64,000 bases of DNA from Bacteroides stercoris ATCC 43183 (GTDB lineage: Bacteria > Bacteroidota > Bacteroidia > Bacteroidales > Bacteroidaceae). Each line of letters begins with the position of its first letter. Position 1 is the stretch's first letter. This document shows positions 40,306 through 59,918 of the stretch, one piece after another. The DNA is taken from NCBI RefSeq assembly GCF_025147325.1, contig NZ_CP102262.1, positions 3,782,001 to 3,846,000 on the forward strand, read 5' to 3'. Below the pieces are notes generated by a model. It saw only the letters and a program-made list of their open reading frames with translations. It was not told where the DNA came from and did not search any database. The position numbers and the translations under genes were made by a program.

Positions 40306-42555
40306 TTATAACCCGAACATATCTGCAATATTAAGATTTACGGTTCCTATTACACTGATTCCTTTTTGCGGAACCTGCAGGGAACTATCGGCAGCCTTGT
40401 CTTTATAATTGAACAGGTTATCGATACCCAGATTGAGGGATATGCCTTTCGGAAGGGTAACTCCGGTATTCAACGAACACATCGTACGTGCATCGTAAGT
40501 GGTTATTTCATACGCATAAGTACCGTCATCATTTTGGTTTCTTGTATAAGTATCGAACTTTGCCCCCCACTGCCCGTTCAGCGAACAGTTAAAACCTATC
40601 TTTCCGAACTTATGCGAATACATAGCATTGAAAGTTGCCGTATGCGGGCGCACCAAAGAAGTATTCCGTCCGTCAACCTCTTCATAGTCGTTCGTATAGG
40701 CATAAGAACCTGTCAATATCAGCCCGAAACCAAAACGATAGCGCAAAATTGTCTCCAAGGCCGTAGTTTTGGCGTTATCGGCATTTACATATTGCATGTC
40801 GCTCGAACCGTCGCCCAATGACATATAGGCTATCTTGTTCCTGAAACGGTTGTGGGCAAAAGAAACCGACATGTTCAGCCCTCCCTTGGTAAACTCGCCG
40901 GACAGAGAGACTTGATTGCTGGTTTCCGGTTTCAAATCCGGATTACCGTACAGCATGAACCAACCCATACCACCCATATCGTATGCCTGGTAGAGTTCTT
41001 TCAGAGAAGGCGAACGGAATCCTTGTGCATAACCGGCACGGAAAGAGACATGGTCGCAAAAATGCCACAGTAAAGAAACCTTTGGAGTGACATGCCAATG
41101 ATATTTCTCATGATAGTCGGCACGTACTCCCGCCACGATATTCAGCTCATCGAGGATATCCCAGTCTTCCTGCGCATAGAAAGCGTACAACTGGTTGTTA
41201 ACATGGGAGCTGTCTTCCAGCATATAATGTTTCAGGTACTCAAAGTCACCTTCGAACCCGACACTGACAGTATGCTTGCCGAATGTTCCGGTATAATCGA
41301 TACGCGGTGTCTGCTTGATATTACGGTAATCCGTAGTTTTCTTTCCGGATAAGAAATAGTCCTGGTTCTTCTGATAATTATCATAAATATATCCTATTAC
41401 AAGTTGCTGTTTTTCTCCGGGAAGATATGTTACCTTACCGTTCAAGGTATAATCAAGGAATATGTCCTGGTACATCTTGCCCACACGCTTGTCCCGTTTA
41501 TTGCGGTAAAACGAACCTTTCAAATCCGCATTTAGCTTTTCATTGCAGGTATATCCTATTTTCTGCAAAAAATCCCAAATGTTGTATCCGTAGACCGTGG
41601 TGGAACCGGCATCTGCCTGCTTCTCTGCCGAAGAACCGTCACTTCCTTCCGTTACGGTGGTCTTACCTACCTCATCACCTATCTCATAAGTATCTTTTGT
41701 ACGATAGGTAAGGCTGGTATAAGAAGTAAGACGATTTTTCTTCACACCGGTAGAAGCTGTATATTTCTGTCCGTTGGAACCGGCATAACGTGCATTCAAA
41801 TTTCCGCTAAAGGGACGATTGGCGGTCTTTGTAATGATATTGATGACTCCACCCAATGCATTGGAACCATAGATTGTGGACTGGGCTCCCTTAATGACTT
41901 CTATACGTTCGATATCGTCTACATTGAAACGGGTAAAATCAACATTATGGTCGGCTCCTTCCCCACTTACGCGTTCGCCGTCTATCAAAAACAGCATATA
42001 CTCTCCGTCCATGCCTTGATAAGATATCTCAGGCATCTGACTCATGGAATTATACCCAATCTGCAAACCCGGCAGTTCGTATTGCAGCAAAGTTTCGACA
42101 TTCATCGGATTGAGTGCCTGAATCTCCTTTTGAGATATTACACGCGTCAGTACAGGTACCTCTTTCAACGGTTTTGCAACAAACGAACCGGTTACCACTA
42201 CATCATTCAGTTGATTAGAAGAAGGAACCAATCGGATATGCAGTCGCGGCGGACGTACAGCCGGAACCGCTTTTACTTCCTGAGATTCGTATCCTATGAA
42301 TGAAACCAACAGCGTATATTCTTTCGCATTTTCCAAACGGATAACAAATTCACCGTCGCTATCCGTGCCTGCTCCGAAAGTAGTTTCCAGCACCCTAACC
42401 GTAGCTCCAGGCATTGGCTGCCCGTTTTCATCTACGACATCTCCCAATATGGAATAGCGATAACGGTTGCTATCCCTTTCGTCCACTTCCTCCGCAAAGA
42501 CAGTGGGCACTGCCGCTGCCAGCAAAAAAAGTAAGGAACAAAGAACCCGTCTCAT
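40306..42555 (-). CDS. hmuR: HmuR-like TonB-dependent haem receptor
   Basis: A 749-residue outer-membrane receptor. A signal peptide (ending VPTVFAEE) precedes a carboxypeptidase-like domain (GDVVDENGQPMPGATVRV, about 37-115), then the plug domain (LNDVVVTGSFV...VETLLQYELPGLQIG...IERIEVIKGAQSTIYGSNALGGVINIITK, written in part), then the 22-strand barrel. The haem-receptor box FRAP/NPNL appears as YAQGFRSPSLKELY and YGNPDLKPE. It lacks the SusC-type C-terminus and is not next to a susD gene. It starts 2 bp after the hmuY stop and ends 16 bp before hmuS, consistent with one transcript. Confidence 0.93.
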   Translation of the reverse strand: MRRVLCSLLFLLAAAVPTVFAEEVDERDSNRYRYSILGDVVDENGQPMPGATVRVLETTFGAGTDSDGEFVIRLENAKEYTLLVSFIGYESQEVKAVPAVRPPRLHIRLVPSSNQLNDVVVTGSFVAKPLKEVPVLTRVISQKEIQALNPMNVETLLQYELPGLQIGYNSMSQMPEISYQGMDGEYMLFLIDGERVSGEGADHNVDFTRFNVDDIERIEVIKGAQSTIYGSNALGGVINIITKTANRPFSGNLNARYAGSNGQKYTASTGVKKNRLTSYTSLTYRTKDTYEIGDEVGKTTVTEGSDGSSAEKQADAGSTTVYGYNIWDFLQKIGYTCNEKLNADLKGSFYRNKRDKRVGKMYQDIFLDYTLNGKVTYLPGEKQQLVIGYIYDNYQKNQDYFLSGKKTTDYRNIKQTPRIDYTGTFGKHTVSVGFEGDFEYLKHYMLEDSSHVNNQLYAFYAQEDWDILDELNIVAGVRADYHEKYHWHVTPKVSLLWHFCDHVSFRAGYAQGFRSPSLKELYQAYDMGGMGWFMLYGNPDLKPETSNQVSLSGEFTKGGLNMSVSFAHNRFRNKIAYMSLGDGSSDMQYVNADNAKTTALETILRYRFGFGLILTGSYAYTNDYEEVDGRNTSLVRPHTATFNAMYSHKFGKIGFNCSLNGQWGAKFDTYTRNQNDDGTYAYEITTYDARTMCSLNTGVTLPKGISLNLGIDNLFNYKDKAADSSLQVPQKGISVIGTVNLNIADMFGL

Positions 42556-48024: not shown

Positions 48025-48083
48025 TAAGATTTTATGTCTAAAACAAGATTAAAACCAGATTAATCAACTATTCTTTTTTTGAG

Positions 48084-48114
48084 AAAAATGGGACAAATGA
48101 TGTCCCATTTTTCA
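48084..48114 (+). terminator. Terminator of the REC-REC-PPDK gene
   Basis: A 12-bp stem (AAAAATGGGACA / TGTCCCATTTTT) around a 5-nt loop, followed by T-rich sequence. Confidence 0.85.
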
Positions 48115-48166
48115 TTTATAACTGCAAAACAAGGCGATAAGCGCTAATTATCTCATCTAAAAAACA

Positions 48167-48174
48167 TATTTTTG
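48167..48174 (+). promoter_or_regulatory. -7 box for the DUF4493/PCMD operon
   Basis: TATTTTTG, an exact TAnnTTTG match, 52 bp upstream of the ATG at 48226. It is the only such box I found for the eight-gene operon. Confidence 0.7.
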
Positions 48175-48225
48175 TACCCGACTTCAAGAATTAGCAGGTA
48201 AAAAGATAACCAAACACTGTTGTTA

Positions 48226-50697
48226 ATGGGTAAAAAATATACAACTTTTCTAACCCTGTTTACAGTAATATGTATTACATTGACCGGATGTGAGCGGGAG
48301 AATGAACAAACTGCAAACCAGGGCAGACTTAATCTGAAATTAGCAGTTGATACAAATGTAGAAAACATGGTAACACGTGCTACCGCTGATGAAGAGACAT
48401 TACCCGACATCAACGACTTCTCAATTGCCGTTCTTCAAAATAATAATGTACAACTTACCTGGAACAGGTATGCCGACTTTACAGACGGAACGGAAATTGC
48501 AGCCGGCAACTATACACTAAAGGCCACTTATGGAAACATAGAAACCCAAGGTTTTGAAGCCCCTTACTACGAAGGAGCAAAAGAGTTCTCCATAAAAAAG
48601 AACGAAAGTACAAACATATCGGTCATATGTTATCTTGCCAATGTAAAAGTTACGACAGAATACACGGAACTTTTCAAAAAATATTTTACAGACTACACCG
48701 TAAACATACGCCCTGCCGGCAGTACGGACATCTCGTTCGACAAGAATGAAACAAGGGCCGCATACGTAAAGCCTGGCAAGATAAGCATTTACCTGTCAGG
48801 AAGCAAACAACAAGGAAACAAAGTCACATTTGAAGCCGCTACCATAGAGAATGCAAAGGCACGCCAGCATTACCGTCTGAAATTTGACGTACAAGCAGGG
48901 GGTACGGAATTGGATGTATCATTCACGGACGAAACGGAAAGAGTGCCGATAACCATAGATATTTCGGACGATGCCTTGAACACACAGCCACCGTTCTTTA
49001 CGCCAACGGGGTTTGAATCGGGAGTTGCCCGGGAGTTAACGGAATGGACAGAACCCGAATCCCCTTTATCAGCCTTGCTGACGGCGCGTGGCGGAATATC
49101 CAAATGTGTCTTGACAACCCGCTCTCCTTCTCTGTTAAGCAAGGGATGGCCTGCCGAGATTGATCTGGTAAATCCGGAACCAGGCATGCTTACCACATTA
49201 CAAGATTTGGGGCTGGAGTTAAAAGGATTAAGTGCCAATGTCGATAAAATGGCAATATTGGACTTCACAAAAGTACTGGTCAATATATCTCATTCGGAAA
49301 CAGACGAAGAAAATACATTTACCTTGACCGCAACAGACAAATTGAGTAAAGTAAACAAAGAGCCATTGGTACTCAAAATCAAATCTCTGCCTAATGGTTT
49401 TGACGTAGCCAAGCCTATGAATGCCGAACGTGGAAGCACTACCATACTGCTGACCGTCATTTTGAAAGGGGACATATCCAAAGTCAGCTATCAATATCAG
49501 GCATACGGCTATTGGCAACCTTTAGTTCCTACAAGCATAGAGAGCGACAAAGATACGCACCAAGTAACCATCACGTTCAAAGACGGGTTACAGGAACCTC
49601 AACAGATAAAAGTAATTGCGGGAGATAAAGAAAAGACCGTGACAGTAGGAATCGGTGAATCATCCTGTTCCCTGACTGCTCCCGAAGGAGATGTATGGAC
49701 TAAAAAAGCCACTCTCTATTTGGTTGGAGACACGGAGGGAACAACCGAATATCTGAAGACGGTTAAGGATATTACCGTAAAATGCAGAAAAGCGTCAGGA
49801 GACTGGTTTTCTCCATCACAAGAAAAAATAAAAAATGCGGTTGAGGTTAGCGGATTAGAGCCTGGCACCGATTACATATTTAAAGCCGTAATAGATGGAA
49901 CCAATACAATTACCGTCAAGAATGAAGTATCCGTAAAAACCGAAGAAGCACTACAGATACCCAATTCCGGTTTTGAAGACTGGCATACAGATTCCGATAC
50001 ACGGTGGTCTGCTGGGACTTTTGGAGATTTCACCCACTATTTTTATTACCCTTATACTAAAGGTGCTACTGATATATGGTGGAATACAAACAACAAATAT
50101 TCCCAAGCATGGGTTGTGGCACCGGTACAGACAACAACCTGTCCGGCCGTTATCTATGTAAAAGACGCAAAAAGCGGTGCTAAAGCAGCGGAGATTCACA
50201 CAGCCGGTTCCGGCGGAGGATATTCGAGTACCCCTGTCACGATGTACCCCGAGGGAGCAAAAGCAGGACGCTTATTCATAGGGACCTATAATTGGAGTGA
50301 CAAGAAAGAGACCGTAACAACTGGACATCTTTTCACCTCCCGACCCTACGGAATGAAATTCTGGTATAAATACACTCCCTATCAGACAGACAACTTTAAA
50401 GTTGAAATCGAGATACGCAGCGGGAATAAAGTCATAGCAGGCGGCTCGTACATATCAGAAGCCGCAAGTTCTGCAGACAGCGAATATCAGGAAGCATATA
50501 TCAACCTCGACTACCAAGGAAATATGGAAAAAGCAACTGACATATATGTCAATATTCTATCAACAACCAAAACCTCTTTCGGCAGTGACGATTTACAGAA
50601 AGCCGGAACAATTGATTTGACAGATTGTGCAACAGGCTGGACCACCCATTTAGGCAGCCGCCTCAAAATAGACGATTTAGAACTTATATATGAATAA
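48226..50697 (+). CDS. DUF4493-PCMD surface lipoprotein (operon gene 1)
   Basis: An 823-residue lipoprotein (lipobox TLTGC, Cys22; next residues EREN are charged, suggesting surface export). Residues about 33-270 are a DUF4493 domain starting GRLNLKLAV, with TR at 50-51. A middle region of beta-sandwich repeats follows, then an Fn3-like unit (GLEPGTDYIFKAV...VSVKTEE). The C-terminal PCMD domain begins IPNSGFEDWHTD and ends GSRLKIDDLELIYE. PCMD is named as a putative carbohydrate metabolism domain and has a jelly-roll character. The ATG at 48226 is chosen over the TTG at 48220. First and largest gene of the operon; the next starts 6 bp later. Confidence 0.88.
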   Translation: MGKKYTTFLTLFTVICITLTGCERENEQTANQGRLNLKLAVDTNVENMVTRATADEETLPDINDFSIAVLQNNNVQLTWNRYADFTDGTEIAAGNYTLKATYGNIETQGFEAPYYEGAKEFSIKKNESTNISVICYLANVKVTTEYTELFKKYFTDYTVNIRPAGSTDISFDKNETRAAYVKPGKISIYLSGSKQQGNKVTFEAATIENAKARQHYRLKFDVQAGGTELDVSFTDETERVPITIDISDDALNTQPPFFTPTGFESGVARELTEWTEPESPLSALLTARGGISKCVLTTRSPSLLSKGWPAEIDLVNPEPGMLTTLQDLGLELKGLSANVDKMAILDFTKVLVNISHSETDEENTFTLTATDKLSKVNKEPLVLKIKSLPNGFDVAKPMNAERGSTTILLTVILKGDISKVSYQYQAYGYWQPLVPTSIESDKDTHQVTITFKDGLQEPQQIKVIAGDKEKTVTVGIGESSCSLTAPEGDVWTKKATLYLVGDTEGTTEYLKTVKDITVKCRKASGDWFSPSQEKIKNAVEVSGLEPGTDYIFKAVIDGTNTITVKNEVSVKTEEALQIPNSGFEDWHTDSDTRWSAGTFGDFTHYFYYPYTKGATDIWWNTNNKYSQAWVVAPVQTTTCPAVIYVKDAKSGAKAAEIHTAGSGGGYSSTPVTMYPEGAKAGRLFIGTYNWSDKKETVTTGHLFTSRPYGMKFWYKYTPYQTDNFKVEIEIRSGNKVIAGGSYISEAASSADSEYQEAYINLDYQGNMEKATDIYVNILSTTKTSFGSDDLQKAGTIDLTDCATGWTTHLGSRLKIDDLELIYE

Positions 50698-50703
50698 CAA
50701 AAT

Positions 50704-51972
50704 ATGAAGAAATCAAACACCCTGTTTACTCTGGCATTCTTTGCTATTCTGGTATTCTCTTCATGCGAACGCGAGCAATGGGGAAACGCCCAAAAAGGTC
50801 CTGACGACATAGACAATCGTGCCGAAGGTCAAATAGGACTGTCTGCATTAAAAGTCTCCGTAGACGAGAAAACAGCTACTACAGTTACCCGTGCAGGAAT
50901 CAATACCGACAATTTCATTATCCGCATTTACGATATGGATAAAGAAGGAAAAATGGTGCAAGAGTGGAAATGCAGCGAGATGCCCGAAATATTCACGCTA
51001 AAGGTAAGCCATTACAGTATCACAGCCATGTCTCACGAAGTACAACCGGCAGAGTTCGAAAAGCCCTATTACTTCTCCAAACAGGATTTTGAAATTACTG
51101 AAAATACGGTAACGGATCTTAAAGAACTGGTTTGTACCTTGAATAATATCAAGGTAAGAATAGCCTATGACAGCGAACTTCAAAAGCTGTTGGATGAAGA
51201 CTCCAAAGTCCAGGTATCCGTCGGTGAAGGGCGTTTGGAATATGCAAAAGACGAAACACGTGCAGGATATTTCAAATCCATCGGTGAAACCAACATTCTG
51301 ATTGCCGACCTCAGCGCAACCATTCAAGGAGAGAAAGTTACGATGTCCAAAGCCTTCATCGACGTCCTTCCCGGTGAAGAACGTATCATTAAATATTCGA
51401 TGAAACAAAACAGCGGTGGTGACGGCGACAATGGAGAGATTGGAAAGGTCGACATCCAGATAGATGCAACATGTGAGGTTGTAGAGAAAGACATAACCAT
51501 AGCCCCGGGAGAAGAAGAGCCGCTACCCGAACCCGAACCGAATCCCGAACCGAGTCCCGGAACCAAACCGGCAATCACCGGCAAAGGTTTCGATATTACC
51601 CAGAGCATAACCATACCACCCGGTGTCTCAACGGACAATCCCTATCCTGTAATTGTAAAAATAGCGGTACCGGAAGGTATCCGGAATTTAGAGATAGGAA
51701 TAACTTCCAGCAGTACCGATTTTGCAAATGCCATTTCCGATTTGGGACTCACCGACTTTGACTTGGCAAACCCGGGAGCGTTAATCGGAATACTCCAGAA
51801 CTTAGGTCTACCCTATGGGGATAAAGTTACCGGTAAAACCGATATTGACTTTGATATCAGTGGATTTACAGGATTATTGGTGGGCTTTCCCGGAACCCAC
51901 AGATTCAATCTAAAGGTTACGGATAACAAAGGAAACACGGCATCCGCAATATTAGCCCTTATCGTAAATTAA
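50704..51972 (+). CDS. DUF4493 surface lipoprotein without PCMD (operon gene 2)
   Basis: A 422-residue lipoprotein (lipobox VFSSC, Cys21, then EREQ). The DUF4493 domain starts EGQIGLSALKVSV and carries VTRAG with Arg63, followed by the strand pattern DNFIIRIYDMDKEGKMVQEW that also appears in fimbrillin-like proteins. Residues about 276-290 form a Pro-Glu-Asn linker (PLPEPEPNPEPSPGT), after which a compact C-terminal beta domain of about 130 residues replaces the PCMD domain (FDITQSITIPPGVSTDNPYP...NTASAILALIVN, in part). Gap to the next gene is 10 bp. No enzyme motif is seen. Confidence 0.86.
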   Translation: MKKSNTLFTLAFFAILVFSSCEREQWGNAQKGPDDIDNRAEGQIGLSALKVSVDEKTATTVTRAGINTDNFIIRIYDMDKEGKMVQEWKCSEMPEIFTLKVSHYSITAMSHEVQPAEFEKPYYFSKQDFEITENTVTDLKELVCTLNNIKVRIAYDSELQKLLDEDSKVQVSVGEGRLEYAKDETRAGYFKSIGETNILIADLSATIQGEKVTMSKAFIDVLPGEERIIKYSMKQNSGGDGDNGEIGKVDIQIDATCEVVEKDITIAPGEEEPLPEPEPNPEPSPGTKPAITGKGFDITQSITIPPGVSTDNPYPVIVKIAVPEGIRNLEIGITSSSTDFANAISDLGLTDFDLANPGALIGILQNLGLPYGDKVTGKTDIDFDISGFTGLLVGFPGTHRFNLKVTDNKGNTASAILALIVN

Positions 51973-51982
51973 GCAAAGCACA

Positions 51983-54151
51983 ATGCCAAAGAGATACTTC
52001 AAATATTATCTGACAGCCATAACAGTGATTTCATTTATCGCCTGTTCGGAAAAGTACACCTTGAACGGAGAGGGAATGCTTCATTTGAAAGTAGGTGTAA
52101 CCGACCAGGTGAAAGTTACAACCCGTTCTATGACCGATGAATTACAGGATTCTTTACAACGCCACTGTACAATCGACATCCTTAATGAAAAGGGAACCGT
52201 CCGCCGGTACAAAGGAGTAAACGAACTTCCGGAAGCGCTTTACCTCTCTGCCGGCAGCTACACAGCCCTTGTTACGGCAGGCGACTCAGTACCCGCTTCT
52301 TTCGAAACTGTATACTATAAAGAAGAACGTCCCTTCCACATTAACAGCGGCGAAGTTACCAACCTGGAGCTAACTTGCGGCATCGCCAATACGGTAGTTG
52401 CCGTAAAATATGATGAAGCATTGAGCTCCGTATTCCAAACCTATAAAGTTACGGTATCCACTGCAGACGGTACTTTAGATTATCTTCCCGAAACCAAAGA
52501 CTCCATCGGCTACTACATGCTGCCGGCGGGCAATACTAAGCTGCAATGGCATCTGGAAGCAACCATGCCCAACGGAAAAAGCTATACAAAAGAAGGAAAC
52601 ATTCCGGATGCGCAATCCGCCTATCGCTACGACTTGTCCTTCAACTTCATACCGACAGACTACGCAGACGGTGGCGGTACGGTAAAAGTCAGTGTCAACG
52701 CCAATCCGATAAGAGAAATAACCGATGAAGTACAGATTTATCAACGACCTATCTTCCGCGGCGAAAACTTCGATATAACCTCTTCCGCATTCTATGAAGT
52801 AGGCATGGGAACGGAATTATCGTATACCGTAACAAGTACATCCGTACTCAATGAACTGTCCATGTACTGCGAACAATTCGCACAATGCGGACTTCCCGTC
52901 CGGATGAACCTCATGAGACTGACGGAAATGGAAAGGGGGCGTTTGGAAGCTTCCGGTCTGTCATACAAATCCGAATACAATACCGGCAGCGATGTCGGTA
53001 CGATGCGTGTGACGTTTTCAGACGGTTTAATGAAACATATCACAGCAAAAGAAGGGACTTATAACATAATATTACATGCTACCGATGTCCGCAACCGCAC
53101 CAATGAAGGGGTATTATCCATATCCGCTTCCGATGCAGTGGTGCTGACCAAAGAGGTTACAGAAGGTGACATATGGACATCGAAAGCAGTCTTGCGGGGC
53201 GGTCTGATGAAAGAAACATCCGATCCCTTGATATTCCGTTACCGGATAACCGGCTCATCCGACTGGAAGGAAGTGGAAGCTGTGTTGAACGGTAAAGAAA
53301 TGACAGCTGCCATCACCGGTCTGAAAGTGGCTACCACCTATGAATATGTAGCGGTTGCCGGAGAAAAGGCATCTTCCGTGGTTTGCAGATTCACTACGGA
53401 GAAAGCCACCCAACTTCCCAATGCCGGGTTTGAGAAGTGGCATGGTTCCAAGCCGACCTATGTATACGAATCCGGCGGAACGATGTTCTGGGATACCGGC
53501 AACCACGGTTCACAAAAGGCCGGAACGGATATAACCACCGCGGACGGTTCTGTAAAGCATGGCGGTAGCTACTCAGCCAAACTGGAATCCAAATTCGCCA
53601 GCATGTTAGGCATCGGGCAGTTTGCGGCTGGCAATGTATTTTCCGGCAAATACCTGGCTACCAATATGGATGGTGTCGTAGGTAATGGTGTACTGGGTTG
53701 GGGACGTCCGTTCGAATCTCGTCCTACGGCATTGCGCGGATATGTCCGCTACCAATCCAATACCGTGAACTACGACAACAGTTGCGAATTTATCGACAAA
53801 GGCGATCCGGATATAGGAAGCATCTTTATCGTATTGGGCAACTGGCCCGGCGAAACATACGGCGGAGAGACATGGCCTGTAATAGTCAGAACCAACTATA
53901 AGACTCCGGGCAGCGCACAACTGTTCGATGTCAACAGCGAGTATATCATAGGTTATGGTGAAAAGGACTTCACATCTTCGACAGAAGGAGAAGGAATGAT
54001 TGAATTCAACATTCCGGTAGAGTACCGTTATACCAACCGGAAGCCGACAGCTATCATCATCGTAGCCTCATCCAGTAAGTACGGCGATTATTTCAGCGGT
54101 GGAACAGGAAGTACGATGTGGCTCGACGACTTCGAATTAGTTTATGAATAA
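51983..54151 (+). CDS. DUF4493-PCMD surface lipoprotein (operon gene 3)
   Basis: A 722-residue lipoprotein (SFIAC, Cys21). The DUF4493 domain starts EGMLHLKVGV with TTRS, Arg48. A second domain (IFRGENFDITSSAFYEVG) resembles the C-terminal domain of gene 2, then an Fn3-like unit (ITGLKVATTYEYVAVAGE...CRFTTEKA, in part). The PCMD domain begins LPNAGFEKWHGS and ends STMWLDDFELVYE. So its architecture is gene 2 plus Fn3 plus PCMD, which argues that these genes arose by shuffling a common set of modules. Its stop overlaps the next start by 8 nt. Confidence 0.88.
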   Translation: MPKRYFKYYLTAITVISFIACSEKYTLNGEGMLHLKVGVTDQVKVTTRSMTDELQDSLQRHCTIDILNEKGTVRRYKGVNELPEALYLSAGSYTALVTAGDSVPASFETVYYKEERPFHINSGEVTNLELTCGIANTVVAVKYDEALSSVFQTYKVTVSTADGTLDYLPETKDSIGYYMLPAGNTKLQWHLEATMPNGKSYTKEGNIPDAQSAYRYDLSFNFIPTDYADGGGTVKVSVNANPIREITDEVQIYQRPIFRGENFDITSSAFYEVGMGTELSYTVTSTSVLNELSMYCEQFAQCGLPVRMNLMRLTEMERGRLEASGLSYKSEYNTGSDVGTMRVTFSDGLMKHITAKEGTYNIILHATDVRNRTNEGVLSISASDAVVLTKEVTEGDIWTSKAVLRGGLMKETSDPLIFRYRITGSSDWKEVEAVLNGKEMTAAITGLKVATTYEYVAVAGEKASSVVCRFTTEKATQLPNAGFEKWHGSKPTYVYESGGTMFWDTGNHGSQKAGTDITTADGSVKHGGSYSAKLESKFASMLGIGQFAAGNVFSGKYLATNMDGVVGNGVLGWGRPFESRPTALRGYVRYQSNTVNYDNSCEFIDKGDPDIGSIFIVLGNWPGETYGGETWPVIVRTNYKTPGSAQLFDVNSEYIIGYGEKDFTSSTEGEGMIEFNIPVEYRYTNRKPTAIIIVASSSKYGDYFSGGTGSTMWLDDFELVYE

Positions 54152-54899
54152 AAACATCTGTGAAGTGAGACAAAAAGCAATCATCATAACATTAGCCCTG
54201 GCAGCTATCGCAGGCGGTAAAATCCAAGCGCAAGAATTCAAACGCCAAATCGAACAAAGCACATTTGTTCCCAAAGGCCAATGGATAGCAGGCAGTTCGA
54301 TATCTTACTCCGAACATACCGAGGATAACTACCAGTTCCTGATTATCGACGGATTCAAATCCGACGGCTATACATTCAAAGTCAGTCCCCTGGTATGCTA
54401 TGCGTTTAAAGACAATATAGCGGCCGGAGGCCGGTTTGCCTACAGCCGTTCATTGATAAAGATAGATGGCCTGACGCTGAATATCGATGATGACAATCAG
54501 TTTGACATCAACGACCTGTATCAGTTGAAACACACATATTCAGGTATGCTGATACTGCGCAACTACATCAGTTTGGGCAAAAGCAAGCGGTTTGCACTCT
54601 TTAACGAAACCCAGCTGGAATGGTCGGGCAGCCAATCCAGAGTAATAAACGGAAAGGACGAGTCGGTCACCGGAACTTTCGCCACAACCACCGGCATGAG
54701 CATCGGAGCAGCACCGGGCATTGTGGCATTCATCAACAACTATACTGCAGTAGAAGTCAGTATCGGTGTGCTTGGATTGAACTTCAGTAAAACCAAACAG
54801 ACAACCAACCAGGTGTATCAAGGCGAACATTCGTCAAGTAGCGCCAATTTCAAGATAAACCTGTTTTCCATAGGTCTGGGACTGGCCTTTTATTTATAA
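54144..54899 (+). CDS. Outer-membrane beta-barrel protein (operon gene 4)
   Basis: A 251-residue exported protein (signal ending GGKIQAQE). After a short plug-like N-terminal part it shows alternating strands typical of an 8-12-strand barrel, with aromatic ends (GGRFAYSRSL, FALFNETQLEW, SIGLGLAFYL). It is a paralogue of the following gene: VCYAFKDNIAAGGRFAYS against VGYAFKDNVIVGLKAGYN, LNIDDDNQFDINDL against LNIDDDLSFDLKDI. The final hydrophobic-aromatic strand fits a BAM-recognised C-terminus. Overlap of 8 nt with gene 3 shows co-translation with the lipoproteins. I propose a membrane anchor or export pore for them. Confidence 0.85.
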   Translation: MNKNICEVRQKAIIITLALAAIAGGKIQAQEFKRQIEQSTFVPKGQWIAGSSISYSEHTEDNYQFLIIDGFKSDGYTFKVSPLVCYAFKDNIAAGGRFAYSRSLIKIDGLTLNIDDDNQFDINDLYQLKHTYSGMLILRNYISLGKSKRFALFNETQLEWSGSQSRVINGKDESVTGTFATTTGMSIGAAPGIVAFINNYTAVEVSIGVLGLNFSKTKQTTNQVYQGEHSSSSANFKINLFSIGLGLAFYL

Positions 54900-54905
54900 T
54901 CAAGG

Positions 54906-55784
54906 ATGAAGAAGTTACTTATATATATGATGTGCATCATGGTGGGTATGGAAACAGTCCGGGCACAAGAAACGCAGGAAGCGTTATCCCAAGCGCACGA
55001 CTCGTTACGGGTACGGACAGTTTATGTACACGACACGATATACATTGAACGGCCGGCTGTTGAAGCGACTCAACCGGACAGTTCGGAAATTATCTATACC
55101 AAACCGGTCGGACGCTTCGACCGGGGAATTATCAATTACCGTTTTATACCCAAAAAGAAATGGGTAGGCGGACTTACGTTCTCCTATATCAATTATGACG
55201 GCGAAGACAGCCGGATGCTGTTCTCATTGATAAAAGACTTTGATTGCAACTTCCGTACAATATCCGTCAGACCATTTGTAGGTTATGCATTCAAGGACAA
55301 TGTCATAGTCGGACTCAAAGCCGGGTATAACCACACCGTAGCCGACCTGGGTAACATATCGCTAAACATTGACGACGATTTGAGTTTCGACCTCAAAGAC
55401 ATACGCTATTCGGAAGACTCGTATAGCATCGCACTGTTCCACCGTTCGTATGTGGGACTGGACAGAGGCAAGCGCTTCGGATTCTTCAATGAGAGTTCGC
55501 TTTCCTACAACAATGGCAGCAGCACTTTCACCCGTGGCAAGGACGAAGCATTGAAACGCACGGAAACCACCATACACGAGATACATCTGGGTTTGAATCC
55601 CGGTGTTGCCGTATTCATCATGGAGAATGTATGCGCCGAGATGTCATTCGGTGTTGTCGGCTTCAAGTACAGAATAGAAAAACAGAAGAACAATGAAGGT
55701 GAAACAGGCAAACGCACTGCCAGCGGCGCCGACTTCAAAATAAACTTGTTCAACATAAATATAGGAATTACACTTTGCCTGTAA
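54906..55784 (+). CDS. Outer-membrane beta-barrel protein, paralogue (operon gene 5)
   Basis: A 292-residue exported protein (signal ending ETVRAQE) with a longer N-terminal periplasmic segment of about 45 residues (VRTVYVHDTIYIERP...) before the barrel. The barrel starts RFIPKKKWVGGLTFSYINYD and ends FKINLFNINIGITLCL, closely parallel to gene 4 (FKINLFSIGLGLAFYL). Two different barrels in one lipoprotein operon suggest distinct partners. The next ATG (55790) follows the stop within 6 bp. Confidence 0.85.
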   Translation: MKKLLIYMMCIMVGMETVRAQETQEALSQAHDSLRVRTVYVHDTIYIERPAVEATQPDSSEIIYTKPVGRFDRGIINYRFIPKKKWVGGLTFSYINYDGEDSRMLFSLIKDFDCNFRTISVRPFVGYAFKDNVIVGLKAGYNHTVADLGNISLNIDDDLSFDLKDIRYSEDSYSIALFHRSYVGLDRGKRFGFFNESSLSYNNGSSTFTRGKDEALKRTETTIHEIHLGLNPGVAVFIMENVCAEMSFGVVGFKYRIEKQKNNEGETGKRTASGADFKINLFNINIGITLCL

Positions 55785-55789
55785 GATAC

Positions 55790-57379
55790 ATGAAGAAAAT
55801 AAAAATATATGCAACCGGACTGTTCCTGATATTGGCAGGGCTGCTGAGCTCCTGCATAGAGAACAATGTACCCTATCCCATTATAAAGCTCGACATTACC
55901 GCGCTCGAAGTAGAGGGGGAAACTACAGGAGCAGTTATCAGTACGGAGAACCGTACAGTGACAGTGACCCTTGCCGATACCGTAAATATGAAGAAAGTAT
56001 ATATCAGGAAAGTGGAAATGACGGAAGGTGCAAGAAGCATCTTACGTCCGGACACGACTTTCGACCTGACCAATCCTCAAACAGTTATCCTGTCCCTCTA
56101 CCAGGATTATCCGTGGAAAATCATAGCCAAACAGCCGATCGACCGCCGTTTTGTTGTAGAAGGCCAAATCGGTGAGGCCATTTTCTATGTAAACGAAAAA
56201 GAGAGAAGAGCCATTGCCTATGTAAGCAAAGAGCAGGATTTGTCCAAAATTAAAATCAAAGAACTAAAGTTAGGACCTACCGGCTCCACCATACACGGAT
56301 ACGACGGCAACGCCACGGTAATGAACTTTACAGGCGGACAACCGCAAATCGTAATCGTCACTTACCGGGATATACTGGAAGACTGGACACTCAATGTGTT
56401 CGAAACAGATGCTGTCAAGATAACATCGGCAGACGGTTGGGTCAATGTAGCCTGGCTGTATGGAGAGGGGCTTGAAGGCGAAGACAACGGCTTCGAAATA
56501 CGTGAGGCAACCTCTGAAGAGTGGCAGAAAGTAGATGCTTCCTATATGATAACGACCGGTGGCAGTTTCTCGGCCCGCATTCCTCACCTGAAAGCATCGA
56601 CCGCCTATGTCTGCCGTGCATATTCGGGAACTTCCATAAGTACGGAAAAGACCTTCACCACTACAGCGGCAATAGAACTGCCCAATGCTTCTTTCGATTA
56701 TTGGAGCATGGATGGCAAAGTGGCAAACCCCTGGGAAGAAAATAGTACGCCATTTTGGGATACCGGCAATATAGGCGTTACCACAGCCAGTCAGAGCAAT
56801 TCCACCCCCACCGATGACACCGCTGCCGGAAGCGGCAAAGCAGCCAGGCTGGAATCGAAGAATGTAATCGTGAAATTTGCTGCCGGCAACCTGTTTACGG
56901 GAAAATTCATCAAGGTGGACGGTACAAACGGTATTTTGAACTTCGGCCAGCCATTTACAGGCCGCCCGACAAAATTGAAAGGATACTACAAATATACCAC
57001 CGCACCTGTCACAGACCTGCCAGCCGAAGGTAGTCAGGACTATACGCGTTTCCAAAATTACAAGGGAAAGCCCGATACATGTGCCATATACATCGCTTTG
57101 GGCGATTGGACGGAACCGATAGAGATACGCACCCGCCCTACCAACAGAAAGCTGTTTGACAAAAACGACGAGCATATCATCGCCTATGCCGAAATGTACA
57201 GCGGAACAACAGTAACGGAATACAAAAAGTTCGAATTGAACCTGGACTACCGTGTTACTAACCGTGTACCAACCTACATTGTCATCGTATGCTCGGCAAG
57301 TAAATATGGCGACTACTTCGTAGGGGGCAGAGGAAGCACACTTCACGTAGATGAGTTTAGTTTGGATTATGACTATTGA
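55790..57379 (+). CDS. PCMD lipoprotein lacking DUF4493 (operon gene 6)
   Basis: A 529-residue lipoprotein (GLLSSC, Cys21 from this start). Instead of DUF4493 it has N-terminal beta domains (KLDITALEVEGETTGAVIS...VVEGQIGEAIFYVNE, in part), then an Fn3-like unit (IPHLKASTAYVCRAYSG...KTFTTTAA). The PCMD domain begins LPNASFDYWSMDG and ends STLHVDEFSLDYDY. There is no TR motif after the lipidated Cys, so if the other proteins are processed and assembled, this one would stay lipid-anchored. The start is the ATG at 55790; a TTG five codons earlier overlaps gene 5. Confidence 0.86.
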   Translation: MKKIKIYATGLFLILAGLLSSCIENNVPYPIIKLDITALEVEGETTGAVISTENRTVTVTLADTVNMKKVYIRKVEMTEGARSILRPDTTFDLTNPQTVILSLYQDYPWKIIAKQPIDRRFVVEGQIGEAIFYVNEKERRAIAYVSKEQDLSKIKIKELKLGPTGSTIHGYDGNATVMNFTGGQPQIVIVTYRDILEDWTLNVFETDAVKITSADGWVNVAWLYGEGLEGEDNGFEIREATSEEWQKVDASYMITTGGSFSARIPHLKASTAYVCRAYSGTSISTEKTFTTTAAIELPNASFDYWSMDGKVANPWEENSTPFWDTGNIGVTTASQSNSTPTDDTAAGSGKAARLESKNVIVKFAAGNLFTGKFIKVDGTNGILNFGQPFTGRPTKLKGYYKYTTAPVTDLPAEGSQDYTRFQNYKGKPDTCAIYIALGDWTEPIEIRTRPTNRKLFDKNDEHIIAYAEMYSGTTVTEYKKFELNLDYRVTNRVPTYIVIVCSASKYGDYFVGGRGSTLHVDEFSLDYDY

Positions 57380-57394
57380 AAAGAATAAGAAGAT

Positions 57395-59110
57395 ATGAGA
57401 AACGCAATGCGATACATATTCATACTCTGCCTGTTTCTTGGGTTTACAAGCTGCCAGGAAGACGTTTTGCAACCCTCGTACAAAGGCAAAGGACGGCTCG
57501 TGCTGAAAGATGTGGATATTTCGGCAGAAGCCTCAGCAGAGACTGTCACCCGTGCCACAAGCACTTTTACCGCACCAACGGCATCTGAACTGACATACAA
57601 AGTAACCGATACGCAGACCGGAGAAGTGGTGTACAACCAAACAGGAGAGTTCACGTCTTTAGTATTGGATGAAGGCTTTTACAGGTTAGAAGCATCTTAT
57701 GGAACGGAAAACATGGGAACCGCTCCTTATTTATATGCCGCAACAGAAGAGTTCCGGATTACAACAGCCACGGAAACAGCAAAGAGCCTTTCCGTAAAGC
57801 TATCCTGCGCAATCGTCCATCCTACAATAGCCGATAATTTGCTTGAGCACTACGACACCTACAAAATCGAGATTTCCGATGGGACAAGCATACAAGAAAT
57901 CCCTAATAACGCTGACTTTTTTGTACCGGCAGGCAAGGATTATACATTAACATTATCCGGTACGAATACTTTAAATGAAGCAAAATCGAACTCTTGGGAA
58001 CTAAAAGACGTGCTTGTCGCTAATCGCTATACACTGAATTGCAATCCCGATTTGCCTTCTTTTACACTACCGGAGCAAATGGAAGGAGATGTATGGAGTA
58101 CATTTATATATATTACTCCTATGACGGCAACGAATATGAGCTCCAAACCGGAAATGACGGAAAAAGTGTTGGCCAATATCGTGTACGAAGCTTCAGCGGA
58201 CGGAATTAACTGGATACAAGCTATAAATGATAATGGAAAGACTGTTATAAAGGGGCTCGTTGCCAACAACCAATATACCATCCGTTCCCGCTTTGGAAGC
58301 ATCATCTGTACTAATTCACAGCAAGTAACAATGGAAAGTGCAGAACAATTGGAGAATGGCAATTTTGAATCAGTCTGGAATAAAAAAGAGATAAATGGAG
58401 GTAACGGCAGTTGGAGCCGTCCATTATATTGTTATTACCTTCCAGGTTGGAACACGAGAAATGAAAGAACGACCAAAGGTGGGGAAAGTGCCACAGGCTG
58501 GGGAACAGGAGTCGGTTATGGAGTCTGGTGGCGCTGGTGTTCCGGTACTGTTCCAACAGCAGACAGCAGCAAAGACGCAAATGCTGTAGAAATTTCAACA
58601 TTGGCATTCTACAACAAAAAAGTCAGTGGCACTTGGAGCAGAGATGAAGTATATACTTATACCCGGGATAACGGAACAGCATATGCAGGTTACCTTTTCA
58701 CAGGCACATTCGATAAAAACACCGATACATACACATTAGGCATACAGCATGAAAGCCGTCCTACAAGTATATCGTTCGACTACAAATATTCCCCTGTCAT
58801 CAACGACAAGTGCCTGGCTTATGCCAAAGTATATAATGCGGATAAAAAAGAAATTGCAAGTACCATTGAATTCAACTCATCCGGACAAGAGGAGTATACC
58901 ACACAGACTCTCAAATTTGAATATAATAAAGAGCATATGCAAAGCAAGGCCAAATATATTACTGTCTTTTTTCAATCCGGTTACGATACCACTATCTCCA
59001 ATATGCATAGAGAAAACGGTGGTTACGGTAGTTCTCCCTTTGGAGAAGACCGTGTCGTAGGTAGTGTTCTCAAAATAGATAATGTTGTCTTAAACTATGA
59101 TTACGAATAA
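57395..59110 (+). CDS. DUF4493-PCMD surface lipoprotein (operon gene 7)
   Basis: A 571-residue lipoprotein (LGFTSC, Cys20, then QED). The DUF4493 domain starts GRLVLKDVDI and carries VTRA with Arg53. It is shorter between DUF4493 and PCMD than genes 1 and 3, with one Fn3-like unit (IKGLVANNQYTIRSRFG). The PCMD domain begins LENGNFESVWNK and ends SVLKIDNVVLNYDYE, and contains a Trp-rich stretch (GYGVWWRWCSG), the kind of aromatic surface that often binds sugars. The gap to gene 8 is 19 bp. Confidence 0.87.
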   Translation: MRNAMRYIFILCLFLGFTSCQEDVLQPSYKGKGRLVLKDVDISAEASAETVTRATSTFTAPTASELTYKVTDTQTGEVVYNQTGEFTSLVLDEGFYRLEASYGTENMGTAPYLYAATEEFRITTATETAKSLSVKLSCAIVHPTIADNLLEHYDTYKIEISDGTSIQEIPNNADFFVPAGKDYTLTLSGTNTLNEAKSNSWELKDVLVANRYTLNCNPDLPSFTLPEQMEGDVWSTFIYITPMTATNMSSKPEMTEKVLANIVYEASADGINWIQAINDNGKTVIKGLVANNQYTIRSRFGSIICTNSQQVTMESAEQLENGNFESVWNKKEINGGNGSWSRPLYCYYLPGWNTRNERTTKGGESATGWGTGVGYGVWWRWCSGTVPTADSSKDANAVEISTLAFYNKKVSGTWSRDEVYTYTRDNGTAYAGYLFTGTFDKNTDTYTLGIQHESRPTSISFDYKYSPVINDKCLAYAKVYNADKKEIASTIEFNSSGQEEYTTQTLKFEYNKEHMQSKAKYITVFFQSGYDTTISNMHRENGGYGSSPFGEDRVVGSVLKIDNVVLNYDYE

Positions 59111-59129
59111 TTAAACCCCAATTATAACA

Positions 59130-59918
59130 ATGAAGAAACTTTTAGCTTTAGCAGGAATTGCGCTGATTGCAGCAGCCTGCACCAATAATGATGAACCGGT
59201 ACAAGAATGCGGACAGATTAATCTCACTCTGGAAAACTCCACTGCTCCTGAAATCGAAGTAAGCACCCGCACGGTAACAGACCTTACGGAAACGGATGCG
59301 AAGGACTACAACATACAAGTCCTCCAAAACGGCAATGTGAAATTAGAGTCAACCAACTTTCTGACCTTTAAGAACACCACCTTCATCTTCCCCATAGGAA
59401 GCGGCTACACAGTTACGGCTGAAAGCTGCACGGAAGAGGTTGGACAATCCGCTAATGACGGAGTGGGACAAATACGTTACTTCGGAACAAGCGCCCCTTT
59501 TGAAGTCAGGACCAATGAGATAAGCAACGTCAAAGTAACCTGCACTATGGCCAATGCCAAAGTAAGTATTGCCTATGACGAAGTCTTTGCACAGGTATTC
59601 AATGGTTATACCGTTGAGGTTTCTACAGAGGCGGAACCTTCACGGATCATCACCTTCGACAGTAACGGCAAATGCAACAGTACATACGATGCAGCGTTTT
59701 TTAACATCGACAGTAAAAATCCTAATCTGAAATGCACCGTTTCCGGTACATATAAAGGCAATGTGCGTACAGCAACGCAAACCATTCAGCTTGAAGCGGC
59801 AAAATGGTATAAACTGAATATAAAAACCAGCGCCAGCGGCAGAATTGACATGGGAATTTCGGTTGACGACACCGTAGAAGAAAAGCCTCAAGATGTAGAA
59901 GTAAATCCTTACTTATAA
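59130..59918 (+). CDS. Short DUF4493 lipoprotein (operon gene 8)
   Basis: A 262-residue lipoprotein (ALIAAAC, Cys17, then TNNDEP). It is essentially a lone DUF4493 domain: CGQINLTLENS, then VSTRTV with Arg47, DYNIQVLQNGNVKLE, a Thr/Val-rich sandwich and TIQLEAAKWYKLNIKTSAS. It has no PCMD, linker or Fn3 unit. In a pilus-like model this would be the minimal, stalk-type subunit, while the larger proteins would be adaptors or tips. It is the last gene of the operon. Confidence 0.87.
   Translation: MKKLLALAGIALIAAACTNNDEPVQECGQINLTLENSTAPEIEVSTRTVTDLTETDAKDYNIQVLQNGNVKLESTNFLTFKNTTFIFPIGSGYTVTAESCTEEVGQSANDGVGQIRYFGTSAPFEVRTNEISNVKVTCTMANAKVSIAYDEVFAQVFNGYTVEVSTEAEPSRIITFDSNGKCNSTYDAAFFNIDSKNPNLKCTVSGTYKGNVRTATQTIQLEAAKWYKLNIKTSASGRIDMGISVDDTVEEKPQDVEVNPYL

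Follow-up and report, generated by a model that had tools for sequence, protein, structure and literature searches.

A conserved gene set for a probable surface structure

The window analysed here, a 64,000-nucleotide stretch of the Bacteroides stercoris ATCC 43183 genome whose numbering is used throughout, contains an operon of eight genes encoding six lipoproteins and two probable outer-membrane beta-barrels, and this operon belongs to a conserved system. In gut Bacteroides and their relatives this little-studied gene set probably builds an adhesive cell-surface structure, the favoured form being a short complex on a barrel platform with an adhesive or glycan-binding role. What is observed directly comprises gene content, conservation, sequence signals and profile similarity. 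In kind the operon is closest to barrel-lipoprotein complexes and to surface lipoproteins resembling fimbrillins.

As read from the coordinates of the open reading frames (ORFs), the eight genes share the plus strand and span 48226-59918 (Table 1), with successive intergenic gaps of 6, 10, -8 (an overlap), 6, 5, 15 and 19 bp. The gap between genes 5 and 6 becomes -10 if an upstream TTG serves as the gene 6 start, and the operon holds one or two overlaps depending on that choice. The original prediction, made from the sequence of the window, of an eight-gene operon with gaps of 19 bp or less is borne out by these coordinates. DUF4493 (PF14900) scores well above the Pfam cut-off in genes 1, 2, 3, 7 and 8. 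The PCMD (PF13201) cut-off of 28 bits is exceeded by genes 1, with 33.1 bits, 3 and 6. The DUF4493-PCMD architecture proposed for genes 1, 3 and 7 holds for the first two, while the PCMD of gene 7 is below the cut-off (24.3 against 28; 28.1 with its neighbours in frame). The additional domain of gene 2, here named M2, recurs in genes 1 and 3 according to our own hidden Markov models (HMMs), and all 38 of 38 gene 2 relatives match DUF4493 at E<=0.1. A pattern search detects a lipobox cysteine in genes 1, 2, 6, 7 and 8 but misses gene 3, where ISFIAC is recognised by eye. Genome-wide (4.0 Mb), all five DUF4493 matches sit inside the operon, as against four of the seven PCMD matches, the other three being outside it. 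No TonB-dependent transporter, SusD, SusC/SusD pair or enzyme family is found among the eight proteins (Pfam, E<=1), in agreement with the earlier statement that the operon has neither a SusC/SusD pair nor an enzyme.

Conservation and gene order

DUF4493 was found in 17 genomes (16 above cut-off) of a family sample of 151 and the barrel in 19, with both in 16, one of the barrel matches (G011) being weak and covering 40 residues. The order sample of 247 genomes gave DUF4493 in 26, the barrel in 23 and both in 19, two of the barrel genomes (G203 and G362) resting on weak matches. For the co-occurrence, Fisher's test gives 1e-17 in the family and 4e-19 in the order, uncorrected for ancestry. The number of DUF4493 copies ranges from 1 to 11 per genome. 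Two genomes, G095 and G138 (L049-L050 and L056-L057), have 10 and 11 DUF4493 matches, almost all grouped in a single region, and a second barrel gene lies further on; one of the matches in G138 is on another contig.

The 16 other DUF4493-bearing genomes of the family supplied 18 stretches, some of which are truncated at contig ends. In one of them (L054), from the genome with the sub-cut-off DUF4493 match, no gene was recognised. A recurrent order is seen in the other 15 genomes: a lone DUF4493 or DUF4493..PCMD gene, a DUF4493-M2 gene (~430 aa), a DUF4493..PCMD gene, a barrel and a gene of the gene 6 type, in most cases followed by one or two more DUF4493 genes. The barrel is single except in one case, where two are adjacent. 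A scan with the barrel alignment located 305 stretches encoding it; the 80 ranking highest by barrel match were kept, together with as much as 10 kb of flanking DNA on each side, or less where a contig ended. The commonest core among these 80 loci comprises two DUF4493..PCMD genes, one DUF4493-M2 gene (~430 aa), two related small barrels and one gene 6 type. At least two barrels are present in 79 of the loci, the gene 6 type in 75 and the barrel-barrel-gene 6 triad in 74. Within the fetched DNA any DUF4493 is seen in 54, two DUF4493..PCMD genes together with DUF4493-M2 in 36, and all six core types in 34. By best-query assignment, genes 4, 5, 6 and 3 are located in 79, 77, 74 and 43 loci, respectively, and genes 1 and 2 in 42 apiece. 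In this barrel-scan set genes 7 and 8 count as accessory, with assignments in just 3 and 6 of the 80 loci, respectively. Thus the neighbourhood survey proposed with the original prediction reveals a conserved system rather than genes that rarely occur together.

In the 35 loci where genes 2-6 are all assigned, median conservation is 61, 54 and 47% for genes 4, 5 and 6, compared with 31, 34 and 38% for genes 1-3 (gene 1 being assigned in 31 of these loci). A lower conservation of genes 1-3 than of the putative platform is as expected if their products are exposed.

In the remaining 26 of the 80 loci no DUF4493 lies within the fetched DNA, and in nine of these, whose neighbours were read, no other module of the operon was seen upstream of the barrels. 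DUF4493 is found elsewhere in 24 of the 26 genomes (three matches in 20, four in 3 and two in 1), in frames mostly of the core sizes (~790-910, 415-470 and 715-780 aa) and mostly clustered on one contig. In one more genome, G288, where both halves were inspected, DUF4493..PCMD, DUF4493-M2 and DUF4493..PCMD genes lie on one contig and the barrel-barrel-gene 6 triad on another. Given the search of the 26 genomes, the triad without a nearby DUF4493 is not taken as a separate system. That the two halves separate on the chromosome yet stay together in the genome is the strongest sign of a shared function. Behind several triads without a nearby DUF4493, a secreted protein of similar appearance and ~190-250 aa (..NPDNxxxxGxR..) was noticed by eye (L089:13215-13871, L090:13270-13920, L116:13367-14029, L122:13316-13882 and L271:9912-10658) and is perhaps a further component.

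Fimbrillin-like features of the DUF4493 lipoproteins

DUF4493 is probably a remote homologue of the fimbrillins, as judged from profile similarity. The profiles were built from sets of fetched loci, that of DUF4493 from a random draw of 100 among 228 domain hits and those of the fimbrillins from 30 Mfa2 (27 full-length), 18 P_gingi_FimA (9 full-length) and 37 Mfa_like_1 (14 full-length) members. Each score is a single pairwise comparison given as a probability; the fimbrillin profile members were recovered by the HMMs of their own families in 36 of 37, 28 of 30 and 18 of 18 cases, the misses being kept in. DUF4493 matches Mfa2 with a probability of 86.2 at the domain level and 94.5 at full length; the corresponding values are 67.6 and 2.6 for FimA, and 8.9 and 3.7 for Mfa_like_1. 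The fimbrillins compared among themselves give, for domain and full length, 83.8 and 96.5 (Mfa2-FimA), 0.2 and 92.3 (Mfa_like_1-FimA), and 12.0 and 61.9 (Mfa_like_1-Mfa2). With full-length Mfa2, five random DUF4493 subsets score 91.5-94.5; with full-length FimA none of them exceeds 4.6. As controls, DUF4493 scores at most 2.1 against M2, PCMD, N6 and the barrel, and reversed profiles together with 40 column permutations each of Mfa2 and FimA give raw scores below 12 against the 44 and 34 observed. A CarbopepD_reg_2 control (29 of 30 members) reaches 14.2 with DUF4493 over 15 columns and 8.5 with Mfa2, so that a short common motif accounts for part of the fimbrillin score. A separate Mfa2 alignment (15 of the 30 loci) finds the solved Mfa2 (5nfi) as well as 4qdg, 3gf8 and 3pay, and scores 64.1 against the gene 2 family and 0.3 against the barrel family. 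None of the operon proteins matches a fimbrillin Pfam model above cut-off, and searches of solved structures returned nothing useful for gene 8 and, for the gene 2 family, one weak PKD-like match in the C-terminal domain (E 0.087).

A second feature of this kind is a candidate processing site. In the account of PMC5789003 the first strand of Mfa1, Mfa3 and Mfa4 is removed after Arg49, Arg43 and Arg54, while the anchor Mfa2 is uncut. A comparable Arg site, defined as [TSVPH]R[ASTNGVD] located 15-50 residues after the lipid cysteine, was counted in the 166 of 219 DUF4493 ORFs that have a lipobox, the remainder being dropped and some ORFs being cut or mis-started. It occurs in 137 of the 166, about 30 residues past the cysteine, versus 12 of 61 gene 6 type ORFs, none of 9 PCMD-only ORFs and 23 of 88 other lipobox ORFs. 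Because the background of other ORFs includes spurious ones, a better control is provided by the gene 6 type. A count that includes redundant ORFs gives 145 of 176 (median offset 31) for DUF4493, and 12 of 16, 15 of 28 and 7 of 19 for FimA, Mfa_like_1 and Mfa2, respectively. All five DUF4493 proteins of the window have both the lipobox and the site (gene 3 by eye in each case); gene 6, which lacks DUF4493, lacks the site as well. The TRA sites of DUF4493 and of the FimA domain coincide when the two are aligned. The likeness to fimbrillins that is retained consists of a remote similarity to Mfa2 and a fimbrillin-like Arg site; the scores with full-length FimA and Mfa_like_1 are low.

The DUF4493 proteins also tend to carry a surface-export-like signal, taken as at least two acidic residues within six after the cysteine (PMC12578637; the motif itself appears in PMC6222051). 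It is present in 136 of 166 DUF4493 ORFs, 15 of 61 gene 6 type ORFs and 8 of 9 PCMD-only ORFs.

Type V fimbriae (FimA-E and Mfa1-5; Pfam Mfa2, P_gingi_FimA and Mfa_like_1) resemble the operon in their lipoprotein precursors, in having several subunits of graded size per operon, in the remote similarity of Mfa2 to DUF4493 and in an Arg site similarly spaced from the lipid cysteine. The present operon differs in its barrels and PCMD proteins and in that most of its lipoproteins are multi-domain. Elsewhere in the B. stercoris genome (contig C1, outside the window), matches to the FimA and Mfa2 families cluster near 1.99, 2.36, 2.71 and 3.66 Mb, and the genome probably has ordinary fimbrial loci as well.

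Probable barrels and PCMD proteins

Genes 4 and 5 are paralogous (35% identity) and probably encode barrels. Neither reaches a Pfam cut-off. Among the 39 members of the gene 4 alignment, however, 11 match OMP_b-brl at E<=0.1, and the OMP_b-brl_2 model gives an E value of 0.012 with gene 5; the two outer-membrane barrels proposed originally are therefore kept as probable. A solved-structure search with the barrel family found nothing useful. The closest named relatives of the barrel among the fetched loci are from Bacteroides gallinarum (95%) and B. propionicigenes (91%). An N-terminal motif, C[IV][EKRQS][ND][DNE][ILV]P[YF]P, characterises the gene 6 type, being present in 51 of 91 such ORFs versus 1 of 2898 others. 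The PCMD region of gene 6 matches the solved chains 4jrl, 3s30, 3hbz and 4het, and gene 3 also matches solved PCMD chains. As possible minimal forms, one barrel adjoins one short PCMD lipoprotein at L233:6067-8052 and L268:6661-8572.

The structure paper on BT2081 describes PCMD as resembling carbohydrate-binding folds and as having a conserved pocket, and calls for biochemical tests; carbohydrate binding is a proposal there (PMC2954218). A term search of a paper on vitamin B12 binding gave no link to PCMD. The operon shares with the BT2081/PCMD family (PF13201; 3hbz, 3s30, 4het and 4jrl) the above-cut-off domains of genes 1, 3 and 6 and the solved-chain matches of genes 3 and 6. BT2081 differs as a two-domain protein said to occur in SusC-type loci (PMC2954218), while in the operon PCMD is fused to DUF4493, M2 and N6 modules and joined to small barrels. 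The operon has in common with Sus-like and other barrel-lipoprotein complexes of the Bacteroidota that probable barrels and lipoproteins with export-like signals are encoded together, and differs from them by lacking a TonB-dependent transporter, SusD and an enzyme family.

DUF4493 outside the system

Eight DUF4493 genes were read from the seven order genomes without a barrel. The domain is combined with a Lamin Tail Domain (LTD) in five, with Endonuclease I in one and with DUF6359 in one, and one has no other match. Solitary fusions are located in L224, L225, L226, L227 and L228, at L230:6445-7917 on the minus strand (Endonuclease I) and in L231 (DUF6359). The HMMs for the other modules had no match in the stretches from these genomes, and the five LTD fusions have, by eye, a lysine at the position of the Arg site. 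DUF4493 is thus a portable N-terminal lipoprotein module, and its presence alone is no proof of a fibre.

Proposed assembly and alternative explanations

The operon may encode one multi-component surface apparatus in which the barrels and gene 6 form a platform and the DUF4493 lipoproteins a short tip-like structure with PCMD, a reading held tentatively and put a little below an even chance. Genes 4 and 5 together with gene 6, with its CI[K/E]NDIPYP-type N-terminus, would constitute the platform in the outer membrane. The products of genes 1-3 probably reach the outer surface through the acidic signal seen in most of their relatives. Their DUF4493 domain, apparently a remote relative of Bacteroidales fimbrillins, would lose the strand before its basic Arg/Lys site to a trypsin-like protease, and by analogy with Mfa1, Mfa3 and Mfa4 this would open a groove accepting a strand from a partner. 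The subunits would then assemble on the platform in fixed composition, giving a short tip-like structure and no long pilus, on which PCMD jelly-roll domains would be displayed and bind glycan, as the BT2081 paper leads one to expect (PMC2954218). Genes 7 and 8 may add lineage-specific subunits, and the likely role is adhesion to, or capture of, a glycan ligand. Specified in full, as a hitherto undescribed Bacteroidales organelle with a two-barrel and PCMD-lipoprotein platform and fimbrillin-derived DUF4493 lipoproteins that are cut at the conserved basic site and lock by strand exchange into a short fibre, its composition fixed and its tip formed by PCMD lectins, the proposal is doubtful. The size series of stalk, adaptor and tip suggested earlier finds no support, given that genes 7 and 8 are accessory, that the six-gene layout has no lone DUF4493 and that DUF4493 occurs in fusions elsewhere.

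Several observations weigh against this reading. The main one against a short complex is the one-barrel layout with lone DUF4493 genes: such a gene comes first in 12 of the 15 barrel-bearing family relatives, which fits a pilus better. The order sample includes 7 genomes with DUF4493 and no barrel and 4 with the reverse, and 2 of the 26 genomes with an isolated triad are devoid of DUF4493. The low full-length scores with FimA and Mfa_like_1 also count against it, as do the single acidic residue after the cysteine of gene 3 and the choice of loci by barrel, which favours the conservation figure for the barrel. DUF4493 is, moreover, a module of LTD and Endonuclease I proteins as well, so that it may be no more than a spacer.

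A true type-V-like pilus, in which DUF4493 subunits exchange strands to form a polymer, with lone DUF4493 proteins as its shaft, DUF4493-PCMD proteins as its tip and barrels or gene 6 as its base, is considered rather unlikely. It would account for the Mfa2 similarity, the Arg site, the leading lone DUF4493 gene of the family relatives, gene 8 of the window and the up to 11 DUF4493 matches in one genome. However, the six-gene layout and the split form mostly lack a lone DUF4493 (10 such proteins over the 80 loci), a tryptophan in the last 40 residues, a trait of shaft proteins, is found in just 17 of 43 lone DUF4493 proteins, the known five-gene fimbrial clusters are without a barrel as described in PMC5789003, and solitary DUF4493 fusions exist. 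The preference for a short fixed complex over a long pilus comes from the six-gene layout, whose three DUF4493 proteins all differ and which includes no lone subunit. Of the pilus-like or adhesion apparatus first envisaged, the conserved system with fimbrillin-like signals remains, and the long pilus has become less sure, the family relatives with a leading lone DUF4493 still speaking for it.

It is unlikely that the operon instead encodes a barrel-lipoprotein complex that is unrelated to fimbriae and captures glycans or nutrients, with the barrels as pores or docking sites and DUF4493 as a plain spacer between anchor and PCMD. The resemblance of PCMD to carbohydrate-binding folds (PMC2954218), the LTD, Endonuclease I or DUF6359 cargo of DUF4493 elsewhere and the description of barrel and surface lipoprotein complexes as typical of the phylum (PMC12578637) are all consistent with it. 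Such a complex would, however, have neither transporter, SusD nor enzyme family among its eight proteins, would include in gene 2 a DUF4493 without PCMD to present, and would leave the conserved Arg site unexplained. That there is no joint machine, and that module-sharing surface lipoproteins have merely been duplicated in tandem beside unrelated barrels, is quite improbable: the variable DUF4493 copy number and the recurring modules would suit duplication, but distinct protein types stand in a recurrent order and both halves are kept in 24 of the 26 genomes where they are split.

Operon features and upstream signals

Table 1. Positions and assignments of the eight genes and of two candidate signals upstream of them
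Feature	Position	Strand	Assignment	Signals	Basis
Gene 1	48226..50697	+	Lipoprotein, 823 aa: DUF4493 - M2 - N6-like - PCMD	Cys22 and Arg51 site; three acidic residues after Cys	Pfam and own HMMs
Gene 2	50704..51972	+	Lipoprotein, 422 aa: DUF4493 - M2	Cys21, Arg63 site	Pfam
Gene 3	51983..54151	+	Lipoprotein, 722 aa: DUF4493 - M2 - N6-like - PCMD	Cys21, Arg48; single acidic residue among six after Cys (by eye)	Pfam and own HMMs
Gene 4	54144..54899	+	Probable outer-membrane beta-barrel, 251 aa		Relatives match OMP_b-brl
Gene 5	54906..55784	+	Gene 4 paralogue with N-terminal extension, 292 aa		Identity to gene 4; OMP_b-brl_2
Gene 6	55790..57379	+	Lipoprotein, 529 aa: N6 region - PCMD	N-terminus CIENNVPYP	Pfam; solved-chain matches
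Gene 7	57395..59110	+	Lipoprotein, 571 aa: DUF4493 - PCMD-like (below cut-off); accessory		Pfam
Gene 8	59130..59918	+	Lipoprotein, 262 aa: lone DUF4493; accessory		Pfam
TAnnTTTG-type -7-like box	48167..48174	+	Possible promoter		Pattern match only
Inverted repeat	48083..48113	+	Possible terminator of upstream gene		Perfect 13-nt hairpin, T-rich 3' arm

The single visible promoter claimed for the operon is reduced to a possible -7 box, the pattern of which occurs 55 times in the window against 46 +/- 6 expected and which has no -33 partner by eye. A sigma-70 scan was at chance (19 found against 21.4 expected), and the hairpin further upstream is absent from the computed list of terminators. An imperfect 16-nt inverted repeat (81%; 48161-48176 and 48261-48276) around the possible -7 box is perhaps due to chance, perhaps a regulatory site. 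Upstream of the operon, outside it and on the opposite strand, a 749-aa ORF (40306-42555) contains a CarbopepD_reg_2 match (42193-42447, minus strand), a TonB-receptor-like N-terminal domain.

Implications

Searches of one open-access full-text library found no paper treating DUF4493 by name and none for 'PCMD domain-containing'. DUF4493 has no assigned function, and the fimbrillin link and the co-retained gene set make of eight hypothetical genes a testable surface machine. There is a further suggestion that surface assemblies are built from small barrels and lipoproteins in the absence of SusC, and that cleavage at a basic site may affect surface lipoproteins well beyond the fimbriae of Porphyromonas.

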